64,000 bases of DNA from Deminuibacter soli. GTDB lineage: Bacteria; Bacteroidota; Bacteroidia; Chitinophagales; Chitinophagaceae. Below are positions 13,834-60,215 of the stretch, piece by piece (position 1 is the first letter of the stretch; each line of letters begins with the position of its first letter). The position numbers and the translations under genes are program-made. The DNA is taken from NCBI RefSeq assembly GCF_003412455.1, contig NZ_QTJU01000004.1:62001-126000 (forward strand), written 5' to 3'. The notes under the pieces were generated by a model that was not told the DNA's origin, made no database searches, and worked only from the letters and a program-made list of their open reading frames with translations.

Positions 13834-13876
13834 CGCTTCAAGCTAACCGCTAAAGGCTACCAGCTAAAAGCTCCTT
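13834..13876 (-). repeat. Period-7 degenerate array after the glutaminyl cyclase gene
   Basis: On the minus strand heptamers such as TTTAGCT, GGTAGCC, TTTAGCG, GTTAGCT succeed one another, starting a few bases after the stop of the gene ending at 13878. The array contains repeated TAG triplets in shifting frames. Confidence 0.65.
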
Positions 13877-13877
13877 C

Positions 13878-14714
13878 CTATTTAAACTTCACCTCAAACA
13901 AATACGGCCACTGTTTGCCGGTAACCAGGAAACTGCCTTTGGCGCTGTCATAGGCAATGCCATTCAGCACATCTTCCTGCGGATCGGGGAGCTGTGCCTC
14001 GTTAAACACTTTGCCGCCATTGGCAAAAATATCTTTCATATCTGCCCTGGCTACCACGCGGCCGCTTTCCGGATTTATCTTGAGGATATAGTTGGTTTCA
14101 AACTGGTTGGCATAAATAAAGCCGTCTACATATTCCAGCTCATTGATGTTGTTTACCGGGCCATAATTATCGGTTACACCTACTATTTTCTGCATTTTCA
14201 GGGTCGCAGGGTCCAGGTACTGCAGGTTAGAGCTGCCGTTGCTGGCAATCAGGCTTTTACCATCGTGGGTTAATGCCCAGCCTTCACCGTTCCAGGGATA
14301 TTCGGCCAGCTTTTTAAACGTGCTGAGGTCATATACAAACACCTTATTGCTGCGGTAAGTGAGCTGGTATATTTTATTGTCGAAAACAGTAATGCCTTCG
14401 CCGAAGATGCTTTTATCAATAAACTGTTCTTTTACGGGTTTGCCTGTGGCAATATCTATTTTGGCAAACTTGCTGAATCCTTCACGGCCGGTGCTTTCAA
14501 ACAGTTCATTGTTGTGTAGCAGCAATCCTTCTGTGTAAGAGGAAGTATCATGCGGGTAAACCTTTACCACCGTATAGTCCATGGCGGCAGGTGGTGCAAG
14601 GGCTGAATTGGTGGTAGATGCCGGATCTTCTTTGGGTTTGTTGTCGTTGTTACAGGCCGTGCTGCCCATGATCATTAAAGCCAGCAGCACTACAGGAAAA
14701 AAACGTTGTTGCAT
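13878..14714 (-). CDS. Glutaminyl-peptide cyclotransferase, lipoprotein form
   Basis: 278 residues. A lipoprotein signal ends in MGSTACNND, with Cys as the lipidation residue. The rest is a five-bladed beta-propeller of the plant/bacterial-type glutaminyl cyclase family (PF05096), with motifs YTEGLLLHNNELFESTGREG, FGEGITVFDNKIYQLTYR, GEGWALTHDG and NELEYVDGFIYANQF. The enzyme converts N-terminal Gln to pyroglutamate, usually on exported proteins; in Bacteroidota many periplasmic proteins start with pyroglutamate after signal cleavage. It lies 52 bases downstream of the FAD oxidoreductase gene and has a candidate promoter of its own in that gap. Confidence 0.9.
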   Translation of the reverse strand: MQQRFFPVVLLALMIMGSTACNNDNKPKEDPASTTNSALAPPAAMDYTVVKVYPHDTSSYTEGLLLHNNELFESTGREGFSKFAKIDIATGKPVKEQFIDKSIFGEGITVFDNKIYQLTYRSNKVFVYDLSTFKKLAEYPWNGEGWALTHDGKSLIASNGSSNLQYLDPATLKMQKIVGVTDNYGPVNNINELEYVDGFIYANQFETNYILKINPESGRVVARADMKDIFANGGKVFNEAQLPDPQEDVLNGIAYDSAKGSFLVTGKQWPYLFEVKFK

Positions 14715-19512: not shown

Positions 19513-22077
19513 ATGGATAACGCATTACAACAATTCAAGAACCTTGTAGGAATCAAGTTTCAGTTGTACAACAGTCTTTTCACCGCCCTTCCCTTTCATC
19601 GTATTGAAAAAACCGGCGTTCTGCTCTCCCTGTTCCTGATTCATTGCGAAGAAGGTTACCGAAAGCAGCAAAGCCCGGTGGATATCATCAATTCTTTTCT
19701 TACCCAGTACACCGGGTACCAGAAAGAGCAGGAGCAGATTGATTTGCTGTTTCGCTTTATCCAGTACTCCGAACGCCAGGTGGTGCTATTCGATGCGCTG
19801 GAAGATGCCGCTTTTAAACAGGTGCGTGATATCAATGGCCCCGGTACACTGAAACAGCTTGCAGGCTCTATCATACAATCGCAGAAAGAAGAAGAGCTGG
19901 CCGATAAACTGAAACATTTCTGTGTGCGCCTGGTGCTTACTGCACACCCCACGCAGTTTTATCCCGGCTCTGTGCTCGGTATTATCAACGATTTGGGTAA
20001 GGCCCTTACCGCAGGCGATTCTGCCATGGTGAACCTGTACCTGCAGCAGCTCGGCAAAACACCATTCCTGCAAAAACAGAAACCTACCCCGTACGATGAG
20101 GCGGTAAGTCTCATCTGGTACATGGAAAATGTTTTCTACCAGGCTTCAGGCAAAATACTGGCCGAGCTGAAGAGCCAGTTCCCGCATGCGGTGGATGAAA
20201 ACAACAGCGTGTTCCGACTGGGCTTCTGGCCCGGTGGCGACAGGGATGGTAACCCGTTTGTAAACGCAGCAACCACACTCAAAGTGGCCGATGCTTTGCG
20301 TGGCAGCATTATGAAATGTTATTACTTTGATGTGCGCCGCCTCAAGCGCAGGCTCACGTTTAAAGGAGTTGAACAGCCTATTGCTGCGCTGGAAACCAAA
20401 CTGTACAACAATCTGTTTATACCCGGTCACCAAACCGATATTTCCAGTAAGGAGCTATTACAAACCCTGCGTGATATCCGCGAAACGCTGATCACGCAAC
20501 ACAATGGTTTGTTCCTGTACATGGTAGACAGCCTTATCAGCAAAGTGCAGCTGTTTGGCTTGTACTTCGCTTCGCTCGACATTCGCCAGGATAGCACGGT
20601 GCTTACCGCCACTGTAGAAGCAGCCGCACAAACCGGCGCCCTGCCCGCCAATTATACATCGCTCAGCGATACGGAGAAAATCAATGCACTGTTGCATGCG
20701 AAACCTGTTGCAGATATCACCGTGCTGAAAGATGCCCTGCATAAGGATACGCTTGAAACCATCGCTGCCATCAAAAACATACAGCAGTACAATGGTGAAG
20801 CAGGCTGCCAGCGTTTTATCATTAGCCATACTACCAGTGCGCTCAATGTAATGGAGGTGTACGGACTGTTTTTAATGGGTGGTTATACCGCGGAAAATCT
20901 TGACATCGATATTGTTCCCCTGTTCGAAACAGTGGAAGATTTACAACAGGCAGCGGAAACCATGCGCGCCCTGTACCACCTGCAACCTTACCGCGAACAC
21001 CTGCGCAGGCGCAATAATACGCAAACCATTATGGTGGGCTTCTCTGATGGCACAAAAGACGGTGGTTACCTGATGGCCAACTGGAGTATTTACAAAGCCA
21101 AAGATGAACTTACCCGCATTTCCCGCGAGTGTGATATAGATGTGGTGTTCTTCGATGGCCGCGGTGGTCCCCCTGCACGTGGTGGTGGTAAAACGCACAA
21201 ATTTTACGCATCAATGGGCAGCAATGTGGCCAACAATGAAATTCAGTTAACCATACAGGGACAAACCATCAGCTCTAATTTCGGTACGGTAGACAGTGCG
21301 CAGTTTAACATGGAGCAGCTGCTGAATGCAGGCATTACCAATGCCCTGTTCTCGCCCAGCAAAGCCACGTTGAATGAAGAAGAAGCTGCTTTGCTGCAAC
21401 AGCTGGCTGAAGACAGTTTTGTATCGTACACGGCGTTGAAAAACCATCCCTGTTTCCTTGAATACCTGGGGCATGCCAGTCCGCTGCGTTTCTATGCAGA
21501 AACCAATATCGGCAGCCGTCCTGCCAAACGCAATCCCGGCGCCAAACTCAGCCTCAACGATCTGCGCGCCATCCCGTTTGTAGGTGCATGGAGCCAGCTG
21601 AAGCAAAACGTAACCGGTTATTACGGTGTGGGCGCCGCCCTGAAAAAAATGGAAGAAGCCGGCAAATGGAAAGAGGTGAAAACCTTGTACCAGCATTCCA
21701 TGTTCTTCAAAACACTGATGGATAATTGTGAGATGGCCATGAAGAAAAGCTTCTTCCCGCTCACTGCCTTCCTCTCACGCCACCCCAAATACGGCGAGCT
21801 GTGGAACATGATTTATGAAGAGTACGAGCTTACTAAGAAATATGTGCTGAAACTCTCCGGCGAATCAGATCTCATGGGCGATTACCCGGTTGATCAGCTG
21901 TCTATTCAAATGCGCGAACGCATTGTGCTGCCACTGGTAACCATACAGCAGTACGGCATTACCAAAGTGCGCGAGCTGGAAGAAAAACTCATTACCAGCC
22001 CGCAGAAAGACAGCTACGAGAAACTGGTCATGCGCTGCTCCTTCGGTATCATCAACGCAGGAAGGAATTCTGCATAG
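19513..22077 (+). CDS. ppc: Phosphoenolpyruvate carboxylase
   Basis: 854 residues, slightly shorter than the 880-930 common in the family. The catalytic His is in LTAHPTQFYPG (about residue 145). The PEP/bicarbonate loops are FWPGGDRDGNPFV and VFFDGRGGPPARGGGKTHKF, and the C terminus is CSFGIINAGRNSA. It makes oxaloacetate from PEP, replenishing the TCA cycle and supplying 2-oxoglutarate for the GltBD reaction encoded further along. The gene is single; its TAG stop opens a period-7 array, followed by a perfect palindrome. Confidence 0.95.
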   Translation: MDNALQQFKNLVGIKFQLYNSLFTALPFHRIEKTGVLLSLFLIHCEEGYRKQQSPVDIINSFLTQYTGYQKEQEQIDLLFRFIQYSERQVVLFDALEDAAFKQVRDINGPGTLKQLAGSIIQSQKEEELADKLKHFCVRLVLTAHPTQFYPGSVLGIINDLGKALTAGDSAMVNLYLQQLGKTPFLQKQKPTPYDEAVSLIWYMENVFYQASGKILAELKSQFPHAVDENNSVFRLGFWPGGDRDGNPFVNAATTLKVADALRGSIMKCYYFDVRRLKRRLTFKGVEQPIAALETKLYNNLFIPGHQTDISSKELLQTLRDIRETLITQHNGLFLYMVDSLISKVQLFGLYFASLDIRQDSTVLTATVEAAAQTGALPANYTSLSDTEKINALLHAKPVADITVLKDALHKDTLETIAAIKNIQQYNGEAGCQRFIISHTTSALNVMEVYGLFLMGGYTAENLDIDIVPLFETVEDLQQAAETMRALYHLQPYREHLRRRNNTQTIMVGFSDGTKDGGYLMANWSIYKAKDELTRISRECDIDVVFFDGRGGPPARGGGKTHKFYASMGSNVANNEIQLTIQGQTISSNFGTVDSAQFNMEQLLNAGITNALFSPSKATLNEEEAALLQQLAEDSFVSYTALKNHPCFLEYLGHASPLRFYAETNIGSRPAKRNPGAKLSLNDLRAIPFVGAWSQLKQNVTGYYGVGAALKKMEEAGKWKEVKTLYQHSMFFKTLMDNCEMAMKKSFFPLTAFLSRHPKYGELWNMIYEEYELTKKYVLKLSGESDLMGDYPVDQLSIQMRERIVLPLVTIQQYGITKVRELEEKLITSPQKDSYEKLVMRCSFGIINAGRNSA

Positions 22078-22112
22078 TACAGTGAATAGTGAACGGTCAA
22101 TAGTGAATAAAT
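22075..22112 (+). repeat. Period-7 stop-codon array at the end of ppc
   Basis: Heptamers TAGTACA, GTGAATA, GTGAACG, GTCAATA, GTGAATA; the first triplet is the ppc stop codon. Confidence 0.65.
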
Positions 22113-22150
22113 TATGCCAAAAGGCTCGCACCTGCGAGCCTTTTGGCATA
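22113..22150. terminator. Perfect 38-base palindrome after ppc (likely bidirectional terminator)
   Basis: Perfect 18-base arms beginning TATGCCAAAAGG, around a central CC. No T run follows on either strand, but the stem itself carries AAAA/TTTT. It begins right after the period-7 array. Confidence 0.6.
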
Positions 22151-36646: not shown

Positions 36647-37435
36647 ATGAACCTCGATTTAACCGGAAAAACAGCGCTCGTAGGCGGCGCATCACAAGGC
36701 CTGGGTGCAGCAGTTGCAACAGAACTGGCCGGCCTTGGTGCCAGCGTAATTGTGTGGGCACGCAACGAAGACAAATTGAAAAATGTAGTAGCCTCCCTGC
36801 CTTTGAGCAAGGGCCAGCGGCACCGTTACCTGGTGGCAGATTCCAATGAGCCTGCCATGCTGCTGCAACAAATAAAGGCATTACAGCAACAGGGTGTGCA
36901 GATACAATTGCTGGTAAACAATACCGGCGGCCCGCCTGCCGGTTTGTTAATTGATACCGATGTAACGGCACTGGAAACCGCTTTCCGCGCACACCTGGTA
37001 ACAGCACACCTGCTGGTGCAGTGTTTGCTGGAAGATATGAAGACTGCCGGGTACGGGCGTATTGTAAACATTACCTCTACTTCGGTAAAAGAACCCATTG
37101 ACCAACTGGGTATTTCCAATTCGGTGCGCGCGGCAGTAAGCAACTGGGCTAAAACACTGGCGAATGAAATTGCACAGTACGGCATTACCGTAAACAATGT
37201 GTTGCCAGGCTTTACCGCAACAGACCGCATTAAGACTTTGTTTGGAAAACGGGCCGAAAGCGCAGGCACAACAACAGCAGCAATTACAGCGCAGGAAACA
37301 GCACGCATACCCGCACGCAGGATAGGTAAACCGGAAGAATTTGCCGCAGCGGTGGCGTTTTTATGTTCACCCGCAGCGGCTTATATCAATGGTGTTAATT
37401 TACCGGTTGACGGTGGCAGGTTAAATGGTTTGTAG
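36647..37435 (+). CDS. SDR-family protein lacking the usual Tyr-Lys pair
   Basis: 262 residues. The nucleotide loop is GGASQGLGAAVATEL, then LLVNNTGGPPAG. In the active-site helix, where typical SDRs read YxxxK, this protein reads SNSVRAAVSNWAK: Ser replaces Tyr and Arg replaces Lys. The preceding Ser (NITSTSV) is kept. The C-terminal part (PARRIGKPEEFAAAVAFLCS, INGVNLPVDGG) is typical of FabG-like SDRs. The relatives that carry this pattern may use another mechanism, so the annotation as 3-oxoacyl reductase would be unsafe. Confidence 0.85.
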   Translation: MNLDLTGKTALVGGASQGLGAAVATELAGLGASVIVWARNEDKLKNVVASLPLSKGQRHRYLVADSNEPAMLLQQIKALQQQGVQIQLLVNNTGGPPAGLLIDTDVTALETAFRAHLVTAHLLVQCLLEDMKTAGYGRIVNITSTSVKEPIDQLGISNSVRAAVSNWAKTLANEIAQYGITVNNVLPGFTATDRIKTLFGKRAESAGTTTAAITAQETARIPARRIGKPEEFAAAVAFLCSPAAAYINGVNLPVDGGRLNGL

Positions 37436-43360: not shown

Positions 43361-43695
43361 TATTTTTACCGCAAAGAACACAAAGGGAAAACCCACAAAG
43401 TTCACAAAGAAGCCGTTAACTAAACGACATTGAATCGTCAGTCGTGAGTGAAGAAAGCCGTCGAGAATCGAGAATCGACACATCGAGACTATCTTAGCGA
43501 GTATCAAATTTCAGCTGTCGCTGAGGCGATTTACGCTACACAAGCTTGTAGCTTGCAGCTGTTACCAATCGTGAGTGAGAAGCGGGGATCGTGCGCTTCT
43601 TTGTGTTCTTTGCGTTTTTCTCTCTTTGTGTTCTTTGCGGTAAAAAATAACTCAATGCTTAACCAAACCAACATTGAATCGTGAGTAGTGAATAA
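43361..43695. repeat. Composite intergenic repeat island (period-9 and period-7 units)
   Basis: Starts with ACCGCAAAGAACACAAAG units (43366 onward, period about 9), and ends with the same family inverted (43593-43650, ending TTCTTTGCGGTAAA). Between them lie period-7 units GAGAATC and sequences TCGAGACTATCTTAGCGAG (43484-43502) and ACTAAACGACATTGAATC (43416-43433). The last two recur near 50.65-50.78 kb, the second one inverted. The short frames in the segment look like chance. No gene lies from 43344 to 44068. Confidence 0.65.
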
Positions 43696-48544: not shown

Positions 48545-49903
48545 ATGGATGTAGCAGAACAGCTGAAAGTATACTGGAAACAGCAGTTTCCCAACCTGGA
48601 TATCACTACTGTGCCCTTGCTGGTGGCAGTAAGCGGCGGTATTGACAGTGTGGTGTTGACCGATGTGCTGCACAAGGCAGGCGCATTGTTTGTAATGGCC
48701 CACTGTAATTTTCAGCTGCGTGGTGAAGAGAGCGAAAGAGACGAACAATTTGTACATGAGCTGGCAGCAGGTTATAACAAAGAATTGCTGGTGCAGCGTT
48801 TTGATACCAAACAGTATGCGGAGCAGAATAAGCTGTCTGTGCAGGAAGCTGCGCGTGAGCTGCGGTACAACTGGTTTCAGGCATTGGTGAATGATAACAG
48901 CATCACCATTCCCGGCTGGAAAGGTAGGGCATGGATAGCCACTGCACATCATGCCAATGACAGTATTGAAACCCTGCTCATCAACTTCTTCAGGGGCACC
49001 GGCATCGGCGGTTTGCACGGCATATTGCCATTGCAGGGTAATATTATACGCCCCCTGCTGTTTGCTACGCGTGAACAGGTTAAACAGTATGCGCAACAAC
49101 ATGCCCTGCGTTGGGTAGAAGATTCATCCAATGCATCGGATAAATATGTGCGCAATCATTTCCGGTTGAACCTGATTCCCGGTTTGCAGCAGGTATTCCC
49201 GAATGTTGAACAGAACCTGCTGCAAAACATCGAACGTTTTCGCGACGCAGAGCTGCTGTACAAACAGGCGGTGCAGTTGCATACCCGCAAGCTGCTTGAG
49301 TATAAAGGCGATGAGGTACACATCCCGGTTTACAAGTTATTACAGCTGCAGCCATTGACTGCATTGGTATGGGAGATCTGCAAGCCCTACGGTTTCAGCG
49401 TGGCGCAAACACCGGAGATCATCAAGCTGCTGCATGCAGACAATGGCAGTTATACCAGCTCGGCCACGCACCGTGTTATCCGCAACCGCAACTGGCTTAT
49501 TATTGCGCCGCGCAATACAGAACAGCCGGGCCATATACTGATTACGTCAGCAGCAGAAAAAATCATTTTTGCCGGCGGCACATTACAATTCGGGGTGCTG
49601 CCCAACAGCGAAGCAGCCATCAGCACGCAACCCCAGGTAGCCTGTCTTAATGCAGCCGCAGTACAGTTTCCGCTGCTGTTGCGGCCCTGGCGCCAGGGCG
49701 ATTATTTTTACCCGCTGGGTATGCCCAAAAAGAAAAAGATCAGCCGCTTTTTAATAGATCAGAAGCTCTCTGCCACCGACAAGGAAAAAGTATGGGTACT
49801 TGAAAGCAACCAGCGCATTGTATGGGTGGTAGGCCGCAGAATTGATGACCGGTTTAAGGTAACACAAGGCACGCGCAGCGTGATTAGCATCACGCTACGC
49901 TAA
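48545..49903 (+). CDS. tilS: tRNA(Ile)-lysidine synthetase
   Basis: 452 residues. The PP-loop is LVAVSGGIDSVVLTD and the family motifs are HCNFQLRGEESERDEQFV, AARELRYNWF, TAHHANDSIET and RNHFRLNLIP. The C-terminal domain has RPWRQGDYFYPLGMPKKKKI. It converts the anticodon wobble C of tRNA-Ile2 to lysidine, an essential modification. The TAA stop is the first triplet of a period-8 array that continues towards the rhomboid gene's stop. Confidence 0.95.
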   Translation: MDVAEQLKVYWKQQFPNLDITTVPLLVAVSGGIDSVVLTDVLHKAGALFVMAHCNFQLRGEESERDEQFVHELAAGYNKELLVQRFDTKQYAEQNKLSVQEAARELRYNWFQALVNDNSITIPGWKGRAWIATAHHANDSIETLLINFFRGTGIGGLHGILPLQGNIIRPLLFATREQVKQYAQQHALRWVEDSSNASDKYVRNHFRLNLIPGLQQVFPNVEQNLLQNIERFRDAELLYKQAVQLHTRKLLEYKGDEVHIPVYKLLQLQPLTALVWEICKPYGFSVAQTPEIIKLLHADNGSYTSSATHRVIRNRNWLIIAPRNTEQPGHILITSAAEKIIFAGGTLQFGVLPNSEAAISTQPQVACLNAAAVQFPLLLRPWRQGDYFYPLGMPKKKKISRFLIDQKLSATDKEKVWVLESNQRIVWVVGRRIDDRFKVTQGTRSVISITLR

Positions 49904-49934
49904 TGGTTAAATAGCTTAATGGTTTAATGGTTGT
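49901..49934 (+). repeat. Period-8 stop-codon array at the end of tilS
   Basis: Octamers TAATGGTT, AAATAGCT, TAATGGTT, TAATGGTT, then a degenerate end; the first TAA is the tilS stop. Confidence 0.75.
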
Positions 49935-50622: not shown

Positions 50623-50856
50623 CGTCAATCGTGAGGCCCGATCGTGAATCAATGTCGTTTAGTTAAGCGTGATTGATATTTTTACCGCTCCGGAGGATCA
50701 GTCGTGAGGGATCTTAGCAGTCCGAAATTTATCGAGAATCGAGAGGCGACACGTCGAGACTATCTAAGCGAGTATTATTGCGGGGCAAGAAATCGCTTCG
50801 ATAAAACTCACCACTCACTGCTCACCACTCACTAATTTATTGACTATTCACTCCTG
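50623..50856. repeat. Second composite intergenic repeat island
   Basis: Contains the same TCGAGACTATC[TA]AGCGAG sequence as the 43.5-kb island (50753-50771), the ACTAAACGACATTGA sequence inverted (about 50650-50667), and then a period-7 array on the minus strand (about 50806-50856) with GTGAGTG, GTGAGCA, GTGAATA and GTCAATA units. This array starts about 34 bases past the RlmH stop, not at it. Confidence 0.65.
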
Positions 50857-58454: not shown

Positions 58455-59102
58455 TTGGAAAAATACCAGCCATATTTTTCATCTGCATTTGACCGGTTTC
58501 TGCTGCTGTTAAAGAAGCAGGGATTGCTTACTGCCGCGCAGGTAGCAGGCGAGCTGGGCATTACTGCAGAGGGGGCCCGTTTTCAATTACAAAAGCTGGC
58601 GGACGAAGGTTTGGTAGAAGCCCGGCTGGAAAGCAGGGGCGTAGGCCGGCCTGTACAGCGCTGGGGATTAACCGAAAGGGGCAATGCCCGTTTCCCTGAT
58701 ATGCATGCCGATTTTTCCCTGCACCTGATTGATGCGGTAAAGCAGATGTTTGGTGCGCCTGCGTTGGATACACTTATTGAACAGCGCGAAATCTCCATCC
58801 GCGAAAAATACCAGCAGGCCATTGAGGCCACCGATTCGCTGGAAGAAAAAATAAACAAGGTAGCCGAGCTGCGCAATAACGAAGGGTATGTAGCCGAATA
58901 CCGCCGCGAGAAAGAAGCCTATTTACTGGTTGAAAACCATTGTCCCATCTGCGCTGCAGCCAGCCGCTGTGAAAAAATATGCCAGTCAGAACTGCAAACC
59001 CTGCAAACCATACTCGGCAACGATGTAAGCGTTGAACGCACCGAACACCTGGTTAACGGTGACAGGCGTTGCGTATACCGGATCGAGAAGAAGATGGATT
59101 GA
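58455..59102 (+). CDS. SufR-like Fe-S-sensing repressor
   Basis: 215 residues. The TTG start (EKYQPYFSSAFDRFL) is the only reasonable one. An N-terminal winged helix-turn-helix (LTAAQVAGELGITAEGARFQLQKL, about residues 20-45) precedes a coiled dimer region and a C-terminal Cys-rich segment (NHCPICAAASRCEKICQSEL) that can hold an Fe-S cluster, as in SufR. It is divergent from sufA, so it is likely the repressor of the suf operon in response to cluster status (inference). The stop codon TGA opens a period-8 array. Confidence 0.85.
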   Translation: MEKYQPYFSSAFDRFLLLLKKQGLLTAAQVAGELGITAEGARFQLQKLADEGLVEARLESRGVGRPVQRWGLTERGNARFPDMHADFSLHLIDAVKQMFGAPALDTLIEQREISIREKYQQAIEATDSLEEKINKVAELRNNEGYVAEYRREKEAYLLVENHCPICAAASRCEKICQSELQTLQTILGNDVSVERTEHLVNGDRRCVYRIEKKMD

Positions 59103-59125
59103 TTGTTTAATGGTTTGATGGTTCC
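59100..59125 (+). repeat. Period-8 stop-codon array at the end of the SufR-like gene
   Basis: Octamers TGATTGTT, TAATGGTT, TGATGGTT; the first TGA is the stop codon. Confidence 0.7.
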
Positions 59126-59194
59126 CTATCCAATTTTTAGCTTCGCCCGAGGATCGTCGGAGGTTCGTTCAAGGTTCGTTCAAGCTTTTACGGC

Positions 59195-59232
59195 AAAAAA
59201 AAGCGAAGCCGCTGCAAATACAACGCTTCGCT
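59195..59232 (-). terminator. Terminator of the dioxygenase gene
   Basis: AGCGAAGC and GCTTCGCT arms and, on the minus strand, a run of eight T. Upstream at about 59161-59183 (plus coordinates) an 11-base unit AGGTTCGTTCA is present in two tandem copies. Confidence 0.8.
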
Positions 59233-59238
59233 CAGTTC

Positions 59239-59307
59239 ATTCACTATTCACTATTGACTATTCACCGTGATCTTCCTCACTCACTACTCACCACTCACTA
59301 CTCACTA
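59239..59307 (-). repeat. Period-7 stop-codon array at the end of the dioxygenase gene
   Basis: Minus-strand heptamers TAGTGAG, TAGTGAG, TGGTGAG, TAGTGAG, an irregular stretch, then GTGAATA, GTCAATA, GTGAATA, GTGAATG. The first TAG is the stop codon. Confidence 0.8.
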
Positions 59308-60123
59308 CTTATGCGCCTTGCTGGTAAACCTGTGATAGAACGGCGTTTTGCTGTTTTCGTCTTTCGGGGTGAATTTGCCGGTAACAATGGGCAGGTACAT
59401 CACGCGGCGGCGGCTTTTTTCGCCGATATGGGGCGATTGCTGTACGCGGTGCCACAGGCGGCCGTCGTGTACGGTTAAATCACCGGCTGTAATATCGAAC
59501 CCGATTTCTTTCTCATCCGGGTTATGGTCAATAAAGTATTTTTTGCCGAACAGCAGTTTCAGGATACCCTGTTTGTGGGTGCCGGGAATAACACGCAGTC
59601 CGCCATTGTCAAACGGGCAGTCATCCAGGTGAATACCTACATTGAGCATGGGCATAATGCGCTGGCCCATAAACAGATCGCGCGGGCTATCGGTATGCCA
59701 GCCCATGTGCGAGAAGGTGCTGTTTTGTGTGCGGATATAATTATTGAGTACCAGGCCGTCTTTTTCCTTTTCGCCAATACGGCCTTCAAACGGGTGCATC
59801 AGTGCGGTAAGTGCCTGCAGGCGCGGGTCGTTGGCCAGCAGTTTGTGCAGCGGTTCGCTGTACAGTGATAAAAAGCAAAAGCGCTGGATAGTGGCATTGC
59901 CCTGCTCGTCTTTCCCGAATTTGAGGGGAACGCCGTTGATTTTATCGGTACCGTTTTCGAGGAGTGTTTGTTCAACACGCGCAATATCACGGAGATAAAG
60001 GTTTACCTGTTCGCGGGTGAGGAAGTTTTTGAATACAATGTATCCTTGTTCCTGGAAAAAGTGCAGTTGTTCGGTCGACAGCTGATTGCCAAGGCTGAAG
60101 GGTGGGGGTGCTATTTTGCTCAT
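59305..60123 (-). CDS. Phytanoyl-CoA dioxygenase-family protein
   Basis: 272 residues from MSKIAPPPFS; an upstream TTG three codons earlier carries the AAAGGA ribosome-site-like sequence, so that start is less likely. Fe(II)/2-oxoglutarate ligands: HTDSPRD (His and Asp, near 141) and the distal His in LTVHDGRLWHRV. The substrate is unknown; such enzymes hydroxylate small molecules. It is divergent from the inositol-phosphate synthase gene. Confidence 0.85.
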   Translation of the reverse strand: MSKIAPPPFSLGNQLSTEQLHFFQEQGYIVFKNFLTREQVNLYLRDIARVEQTLLENGTDKINGVPLKFGKDEQGNATIQRFCFLSLYSEPLHKLLANDPRLQALTALMHPFEGRIGEKEKDGLVLNNYIRTQNSTFSHMGWHTDSPRDLFMGQRIMPMLNVGIHLDDCPFDNGGLRVIPGTHKQGILKLLFGKKYFIDHNPDEKEIGFDITAGDLTVHDGRLWHRVQQSPHIGEKSRRRVMYLPIVTGKFTPKDENSKTPFYHRFTSKAHK

Positions 60124-60215
60124 TCCTTTCAAAATTTATCCTGTCTACACGTATAGTGCCATCCAACGGGTCAGGAGCCGGGGTTGCGTATATTGGATTT
60201 TATTGATAAAAACAA

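Follow-up and report, generated by a model that had tools for sequence, protein, structure and literature searches.

The DNA analysed here, referred to as the window, is a stretch of 64,000 nucleotides (G000:C19:62001-126000) from a genome of 5.83 Mb in 24 contigs; the named relatives of its dioxygenase indicate Chitinophagaceae. A gene for a PhyH-family dioxygenase (59305..60132, minus strand, Pfam match PF05721) ends with a TAG codon (59305..59307) that lies within a tandem array of 7-base units at 59279..59309 (TRF unit ACTCACT, 4.4 copies, 91% matches), which reads AGTAGTGAGTAGTGAGTGGTGAGTAGTGAGT on the minus strand. A second period-7 array of the same repeat family, here termed family A, is located inward from the 3′ edge of the dioxygenase gene at 59239..59265 (TRF unit ATTCACT, 3.9 copies, 90% matches, GGTGAATAGTCAATAGTGAATAGTGAAT on the minus strand). 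Read together on the minus strand, the two arrays run AGTAGTGAGTAGTGAGTGGTGAGTAGTGAGTG...GGTGAATAGTCAATAGTGAATAGTGAAT with the PhyH TAG in the first one, and the gene itself ends in gcgcataagtagTGAGTAGTGAGTGGTGAGTAGTGAGTG. The initial annotation had let the dioxygenase gene stop with the TAG of a heptamer array, and this is what we find. The convergent gap also contains a central, terminator-like inverted repeat, AGCGAAGC...GCTTCGCT (59201..59233), a period-11 duplicate, AGGTTCGTTCA (59161..59184, plus strand), and a period-8 array, TAATGGTT/TGATGGTT (59093..59123, plus strand), directly after the stop (TGA, 59100-59102) of the convergent plus-strand gene, for which no Pfam match was obtained. 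The PhyH gene of the window is a paralogue without syntenic reference; its C-terminus showed no truncation when compared to the second copy, which is found at approximately 197.5-198.3 kb of G000:C19. Some 76 kb of this contig separate the two paralogues, and it is the second copy that is orthologous, and syntenic, to the gene in related genomes.

Further arrays are found elsewhere in the window. The ppc gene (19513-22077, plus strand, PF00311) is followed, 4 bases past its stop, by the family A array GTGAATAGTGAACGGTCAATAGTGAAT (22082..22108, plus strand) and then by a terminator-like hairpin at approximately 22116-22147. The gene end reads tag-TACA-GTGAATAGTGAACGGTCAATAGTGAATAAA with the intrinsic-terminator-like hairpin immediately 3′ of it. 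The earlier placement of this stop in a TAGTACA/GTGAATA array was right in substance; the TAG precedes the GTGAATA units by one heptad, and TAGTACA itself is unrepeated. After the stop (13878) of a glutamine cyclotransferase gene (13878-14714, minus strand, PF05096) we identified an AGCTTTT/AGCGGTT heptad array by TRF and sequence (13840..13872, minus strand). This array, AGCTTTTAGCTGGTAGCCTTTAGCGGTTAGCTTG, represents a third heptad family and begins 5 bases past the stop, so that the proposed start of a glutaminyl cyclase array within a few bases of the stop was right in substance, with a different heptad family. A period-8 TAATGGTT array detected by TRF and sequence (49901..49932, plus strand) starts with the stop of a tilS-like gene, and TRF located a family A array (50806..50833, minus strand, CAGTGAGTGGTGAGCAGTGAGTGGTGAG) about 50 bp past the stop of a SPOUT methyltransferase gene as well as a family B array, TCGAGAATCGAGAATCGACA (43461..43488, plus strand), without a stop codon on either strand. 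In a single gap at 43370-43640, CACAAAG-type short repeats (ACCGCAAAGAACACAAAGG ... CTTTGTGTTCTTTGCGGT) are inverted around TCGAGAA arrays.

The genome-wide context was assessed on a sample of 1.544 Mb (26% of the genome), read in stretches and comprising 921 intergenic gaps with 216 kb. Gene prediction with a simple codon model gave 1096 genes and a coding share of 81%; the stop positions of predicted genes are exact, while starts and small genes are less certain. In this sampled part, intergenic period-7 arrays numbered 149 versus 1.0 per dinucleotide shuffle and period-8 arrays 35 versus 0.7. Other short periods were rare (one array of period 4, none of period 5, and two each of periods 6, 9 and 10), as were periods 11 (5), 12 (0), 13 (5), 15 (8), 17 (10) and 18 (3), with higher counts for periods 14 (80) and 16 (26); the shuffles gave about one or less per period, and 1.7 for period 4. 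Arrays of periods 14-17 are largely compounded 7 and 8. Within coding DNA only periods 3, 12, 18 and one array of period 16 were detected. The pattern GTGARTAGTGARTAGTGA has 16 matches genome-wide and its reversed control none. The 7-base arrays are therefore real and beyond chance. They are short, with exact-motif runs of two to four units dominating and, in family A, four units slightly more frequent than three. The units found were GTGAATA, GTGAGTR, TCGAGAA, CGTCAGT, GTTTGAA, GTTCAATG and AGCTTGC. The view of the initial annotation that two unrelated unit families share a stop-specific arithmetic is too narrow, since the genome holds at least seven families and these occur at start edges as well.

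All families follow the same polarity. The G-richer strand runs inward from the nearest gene edge, so that arrays are in sense after stops and in antisense before starts. Within 100 bp, and counting one array per region, 99 arrays pointed inward and 9 outward at stop edges, and 38 and 2, respectively, at start edges. Within 50 bp of stops, inward arrays accounted for 55 of 56 in family A, 18 of 18 in B, 10 of 10 in C, 13 of 14 in D and 18 of 19 in E, and within 50 bp of starts for 6/6, 4/4, 3/3, 4/4 and 9/9 in the same order (in total 114 of 117 at stops and 26 of 26 at starts). At more than 100 bp from a gene edge the rule is weaker. Polarity of the motif-defined families was fixed after inspection of the data; in a cleaner test, the polarity of de novo units was learnt at stop edges only and then tested at start edges. 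Agreement at start edges was 19 of 22 in this genome and, in small samples of 80 kb from each control genome, 19 of 19 in G022, 10 of 10 in G004 and 6 of 6 in G056. The inward rule is found again in three further genera, where the heptamers are different. Units of G022 are mostly different (GATGACC, GTGAGAC, TTGGATG and CCACAGAG), genome G010 carries still other heptads, and G002 and G059 have almost none. Where arrays of one family share a gap, 41 pairs face each other and 6 stand back to back. An orientation that simply follows the sense of transcription was rejected because start-edge arrays are antisense.

With respect to placement, period-7/8 arrays were found in 41 of 124 convergent gaps (33%), 68 of 466 codirectional gaps (15%) and 12 of 170 divergent gaps (7%), roughly in proportion to how many gene 3′ ends a gap has. 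The link of the arrays to gene 3′ ends is genuine. The gap preference itself might reflect tolerance outside promoters; a 3′-end function would yield these ratios just as well. The arrays are also dispersed as whole phrases. They recur with the same internal variant; a total of 32 genome-wide matches, against none for the reversed control, was counted for the 21-mer GTGAATAGTGAATAGTCAATA or its GTGAATA variant (phrase GTGAATAGTGAATAGTSAATA), and this phrase is present in 23 of 296 genomes of the bacterial family. The flanks of the phrases are partly shared, for example AAAGCCG on the upstream side and AATAAAA or GATCTTAGCGAG on the downstream side. Families A, B and C, although built from unrelated heptads, show a common grammar of several units, one of them with a G to C exchange (GTGA to GTCA, CGAG to CGAC), and after the last unit ATCTTAGCGAG or AATAAAA. 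In four relatives (L111-L114) the conserved gap between the PhyH and SDR genes measures approximately 62-113 bp and holds a compact terminator, whereas the same gap in this genome is 246 bp long and has gained, beyond its own terminator, two GTGAATA arrays that face each other. Arrays have likewise enlarged a second conserved gap, the one from gene 98 to gene 97. None of 14 readable loci carried arrays at the orthologous PhyH 3′ end. In all of these loci an SDR gene directly follows PhyH, unlike in the window, which raised the possibility of a synteny breakpoint at the PhyH locus of the window; this was dismissed, because the window gene is a paralogue, and next to the syntenic copy the SDR gene is still in place, with arrays inserted between the two.

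Taken together, the array at 59 kb is probably one of several hundred dispersed, short and degenerate intergenic 7/8-base repeats with inward polarity, in which the stop codon is incidental. These repeats have mostly two to four units, are intergenic and concentrated at 3′ ends, and have been copied as phrases rather than merely expanded in place. The 7/8-base step would be set by the way the repeats form, by polymerase slippage or copying as in Mrazek's heptamer proposal, and not by the reading frame. The arrays may then be tolerated where no promoter, ribosome binding site or coding sequence is broken, and such tolerance would therefore lead to the order convergent over codirectional over divergent gaps. 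Where such an inward array meets or runs into the end of an open frame and its unit carries TAG, TGA or TAA, it would necessarily supply the stop. The likeliest source of polarity might be the arms of imperfect inverted repeats, whose pairing is clear for a part of them, in the GTTCAATG family here and in most arrays of G022; that the remaining arms were eroded or exchanged is the least certain step.

Inverted-repeat ancestry is shown for family E and for G022, a fraction of the material that does not include families A-C. In family E, 25 pairs within 200 bp face each other and 4 stand back to back. In G022 the arms pair within their gap (match score of at least 14 in 45% versus 15% across gaps), and array gaps fold far below shuffles, with a median z of -13 in convergent and -6.4 in codirectional gaps versus about -1.3. 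In the present genome, comparing the two sides of one gap gave no better matches than comparing sides taken from different gaps (a best match of at least 14 in 4.1% of own and 8.7% of cross comparisons), and pairing of same-gap palindromes was therefore rejected as the full cause here.

A possible, albeit doubtful, function of the arrays is that of extended bidirectional transcription terminators or 3′-end hairpins, in which the stem arms would come G/purine-rich first and end or stabilise transcripts. The gathering of arrays at 3′ ends, the strong folding and within-gap arm pairing in G022, and the many family A arrays that lead into AATAAAA and a GC hairpin are consistent with this function, as are the 75 of 102 arrays with a detected terminator that point to it. 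However, array gaps in this genome show no stronger folding than codirectional gaps free of arrays (median z -1.1 versus -1.7), with no extra folding outside convergent gaps, for 215 of 317 arrays no terminator was detected in the gap, and many gaps retain a separate compact terminator. The terminator was also considered as the pointer of polarity and discarded, since only 102 of 317 arrays have a detected one and the inward and terminator-ward directions mostly coincide.

It is unlikely that the arrays represent the ends of miniature mobile palindromes of REP or MITE type spread by a transposase. Exact phrases are indeed scattered genome-wide, filled and empty gaps occur within conserved synteny, REPs prefer the same gap types (PMC3733652), and the genome encodes one RAYT-type Y1_Tnp gene (PF01797, 2.7e-20). 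On the other hand, an inverted partner of the same family within 200 bp is rare (15 of 112 arrays in family A, 2 of 71 in B and 0 of 35 in C), neither target duplications nor fixed ends were seen, and the Y1_Tnp gene has no flanking arrays in the stretch read. This single RAYT-like gene (155 aa) is located at G000:C17:415449-415784 (L126) between chorismate-mutase-like and aroB-like genes.

Other repeats accompany the arrays. Dispersed hairpins, GCCGGTGTCCCCACCGGC and GGCTGTGTCCCCACAGCC, recur in array-bearing gaps of G000 (e.g. C19a 36849-37114 and C20 136978-137135), and in the same genome GTCCCCAC is approximately 100-fold enriched in intergenic over coding DNA. On G022:C1 (e.g. 136136-136553 and 274873-275240; L097, L104), the dispersed palindromes GTGCGAGACC...GGTCTCGCAC and GTCGCCAGAGGCGAC are nested between facing heptad arrays, and about thirteen tandem copies of ATTCACG face a GTGAGRC array at G022:C1:226962-227210, apparently a recent one-sided expansion.

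More speculatively, and with a small chance of being correct, inward polarity with a step of 7-8 bases could be the general mark of a single process shared by unrelated bacteria (the Chitinophagaceae studied here and, from the literature, Xanthomonas and Nostoc), whatever the unit sequence and regardless of stops and quadruplexes, by which repeats would be laid down 5′ to 3′ from the gene-side flanks to mid-gap through template-switching or gap-filling synthesis with a step of 7-8 nt. Addition of repeats at broken ends, where 3′ ends would be extended 5′ to 3′ with short repeats and then joined, both sides pointing inward, is quite improbable. It predicts inward polarity whatever the gene direction and independent families on each side, as seen here, and bacteria able to make telomere-like tandem repeats are known from DRT10 (PMC12632851). 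A genome search for RVT_1 reverse transcriptases gave no match, however, so that a telomerase-like enzyme of the DRT10 type from that family is absent and was rejected as the source. Moreover, array gaps are not clearly synteny breakpoints (2 of 26 conserved versus 4 of 61, a small sample with low power), and two array-bearing gaps sit in conserved synteny.

A translational fail-safe, in which 7/8-base units are selected after stops to place stops in every frame, is very improbable. In its favour, family A units (GTGAGTA, GTGAATA) put a stop into each of the three sense-strand frames while the opposite strand is free of them, and among 1096 genes 15 family A arrays, together with 6 of other families, overlap a stop codon. 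The suggested comparison of periods after stops also came out as anticipated, with 58 arrays of period 7 and 15 of period 8 within 40 bp past a stop in the sampled gaps versus none of period 6 and two of period 9. The same spectrum is seen, however, away from both stops and starts (periods 7, 8, 6 and 9 with 81, 14, 2 and 0 arrays), and periods 5, 10, 11 and 13 sweep the frames just as well without comparable enrichment, which removes frame-sweeping as the reason for the period. Furthermore, arrays of TCGAGAA (family B) and TCGACAG contain no stop in any frame of either strand, and the period-8 unit GTTCAATG (family E) is stop-free on its sense strand, yet these families show the same location and polarity as the stop-bearing ones; stop content is therefore not the driver of the pattern. 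Antisense arrays at start edges are not predicted by a stop-supplying role either. With the stop-sweeping arithmetic ruled out on these grounds, the in-array stop codon is a by-product of inward polarity and unit sequence, and not a purpose.

Elements forming G-quadruplexes, as proposed for the Xanthomonas GGGAATC repeats, can be dismissed almost entirely, since polarity, unit number and a related consensus (GGGAATC versus GAGAATC, GTGAATC and GTGAATA) are shared but a G3 quadruplex motif was found in none of 271 arrays of families A-C, which rejects a G3-type role for these families and shows that quadruplexes are not the general reason for the polarity.

The closest known systems are heptamers. 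Rehm et al. 2015 (PMC4692102) described GGGAATC heptamers in Xanthomonas that are placed in sense within 50 bp of a stop, overlaps with the stop included, and in antisense within 50 bp upstream of an ORF start; arrays on opposite strands face each other in pairs, four units are preferred, and few arrays lie between divergent genes. The authors favoured quadruplexes. Like these repeats and the GGGGA(C/T)T repeats of Nostoc, the arrays studied here are intergenic, have 7-base units with few copies per array, the same polarity at gene edges with some stop overlaps, facing pairs, and a low frequency between divergent genes. They differ in the many families per genome, the occurrence of period 8 besides 7, the stronger preference for convergent gaps and the missing GGG tracts and quadruplex potential. 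A second type are the TAACTGA repeats of Beggiatoaceae, Cyanobacteria and some Bacteroidetes (MacGregor 2015, PMC4679880), intergenic heptamers whose arrays, in one orientation, contain stops in every frame and overlap the ends of 13 genes. MacGregor pointed out that a heptamer which stops every frame can overlap a gene at its end only, and referred to Mrazek, who proposed that the 7-nt length mirrors the contact of the polymerase. The description of heptameric repeats as not stop-linked in the initial annotation is contradicted by both studies. In the TAACTGA system one unit dominates and, in BOGUAY, mostly reads towards the start directly downstream, whereas arrays here read away from starts. 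In genome G281 the reversed control pattern matches 20 times, owing to a TAAGTGA/TAACTGA-like heptamer family that resembles MacGregor's repeats. REP, BIME and REPIN elements with RAYT (PMC3733652, PMC3116915) are likewise dispersed, intergenic, located after coding regions and often arranged in facing pairs; they are palindromes of 20-40 bp with a GTAG or CGTC tag, in contrast to direct-repeat arrays, and the RAYT-type transposase they share with this genome was not adjacent to arrays in the stretch read. The TAACTGA unit was not among the units of the arrays in this genome. The cyanobacterial STRRs of Mazel et al. are reportedly short heptameric intergenic tandem repeats and in this respect similar to the arrays described here, with a different sequence and host.

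Heptamers that overlap stops and lie in sense after stops and in antisense before starts are thus already known from the work of Rehm et al. 2015 (PMC4692102). What is new is the Xanthomonas-type polarity of many families that have no potential for G3 quadruplexes. Two attractive explanations, stop-codon arithmetic and G-quadruplex formation, are thereby removed, and the rule that remains, a 7/8-base step running inward from gene edges, is independent of sequence and may point to the origin of bacterial intergenic repeats.
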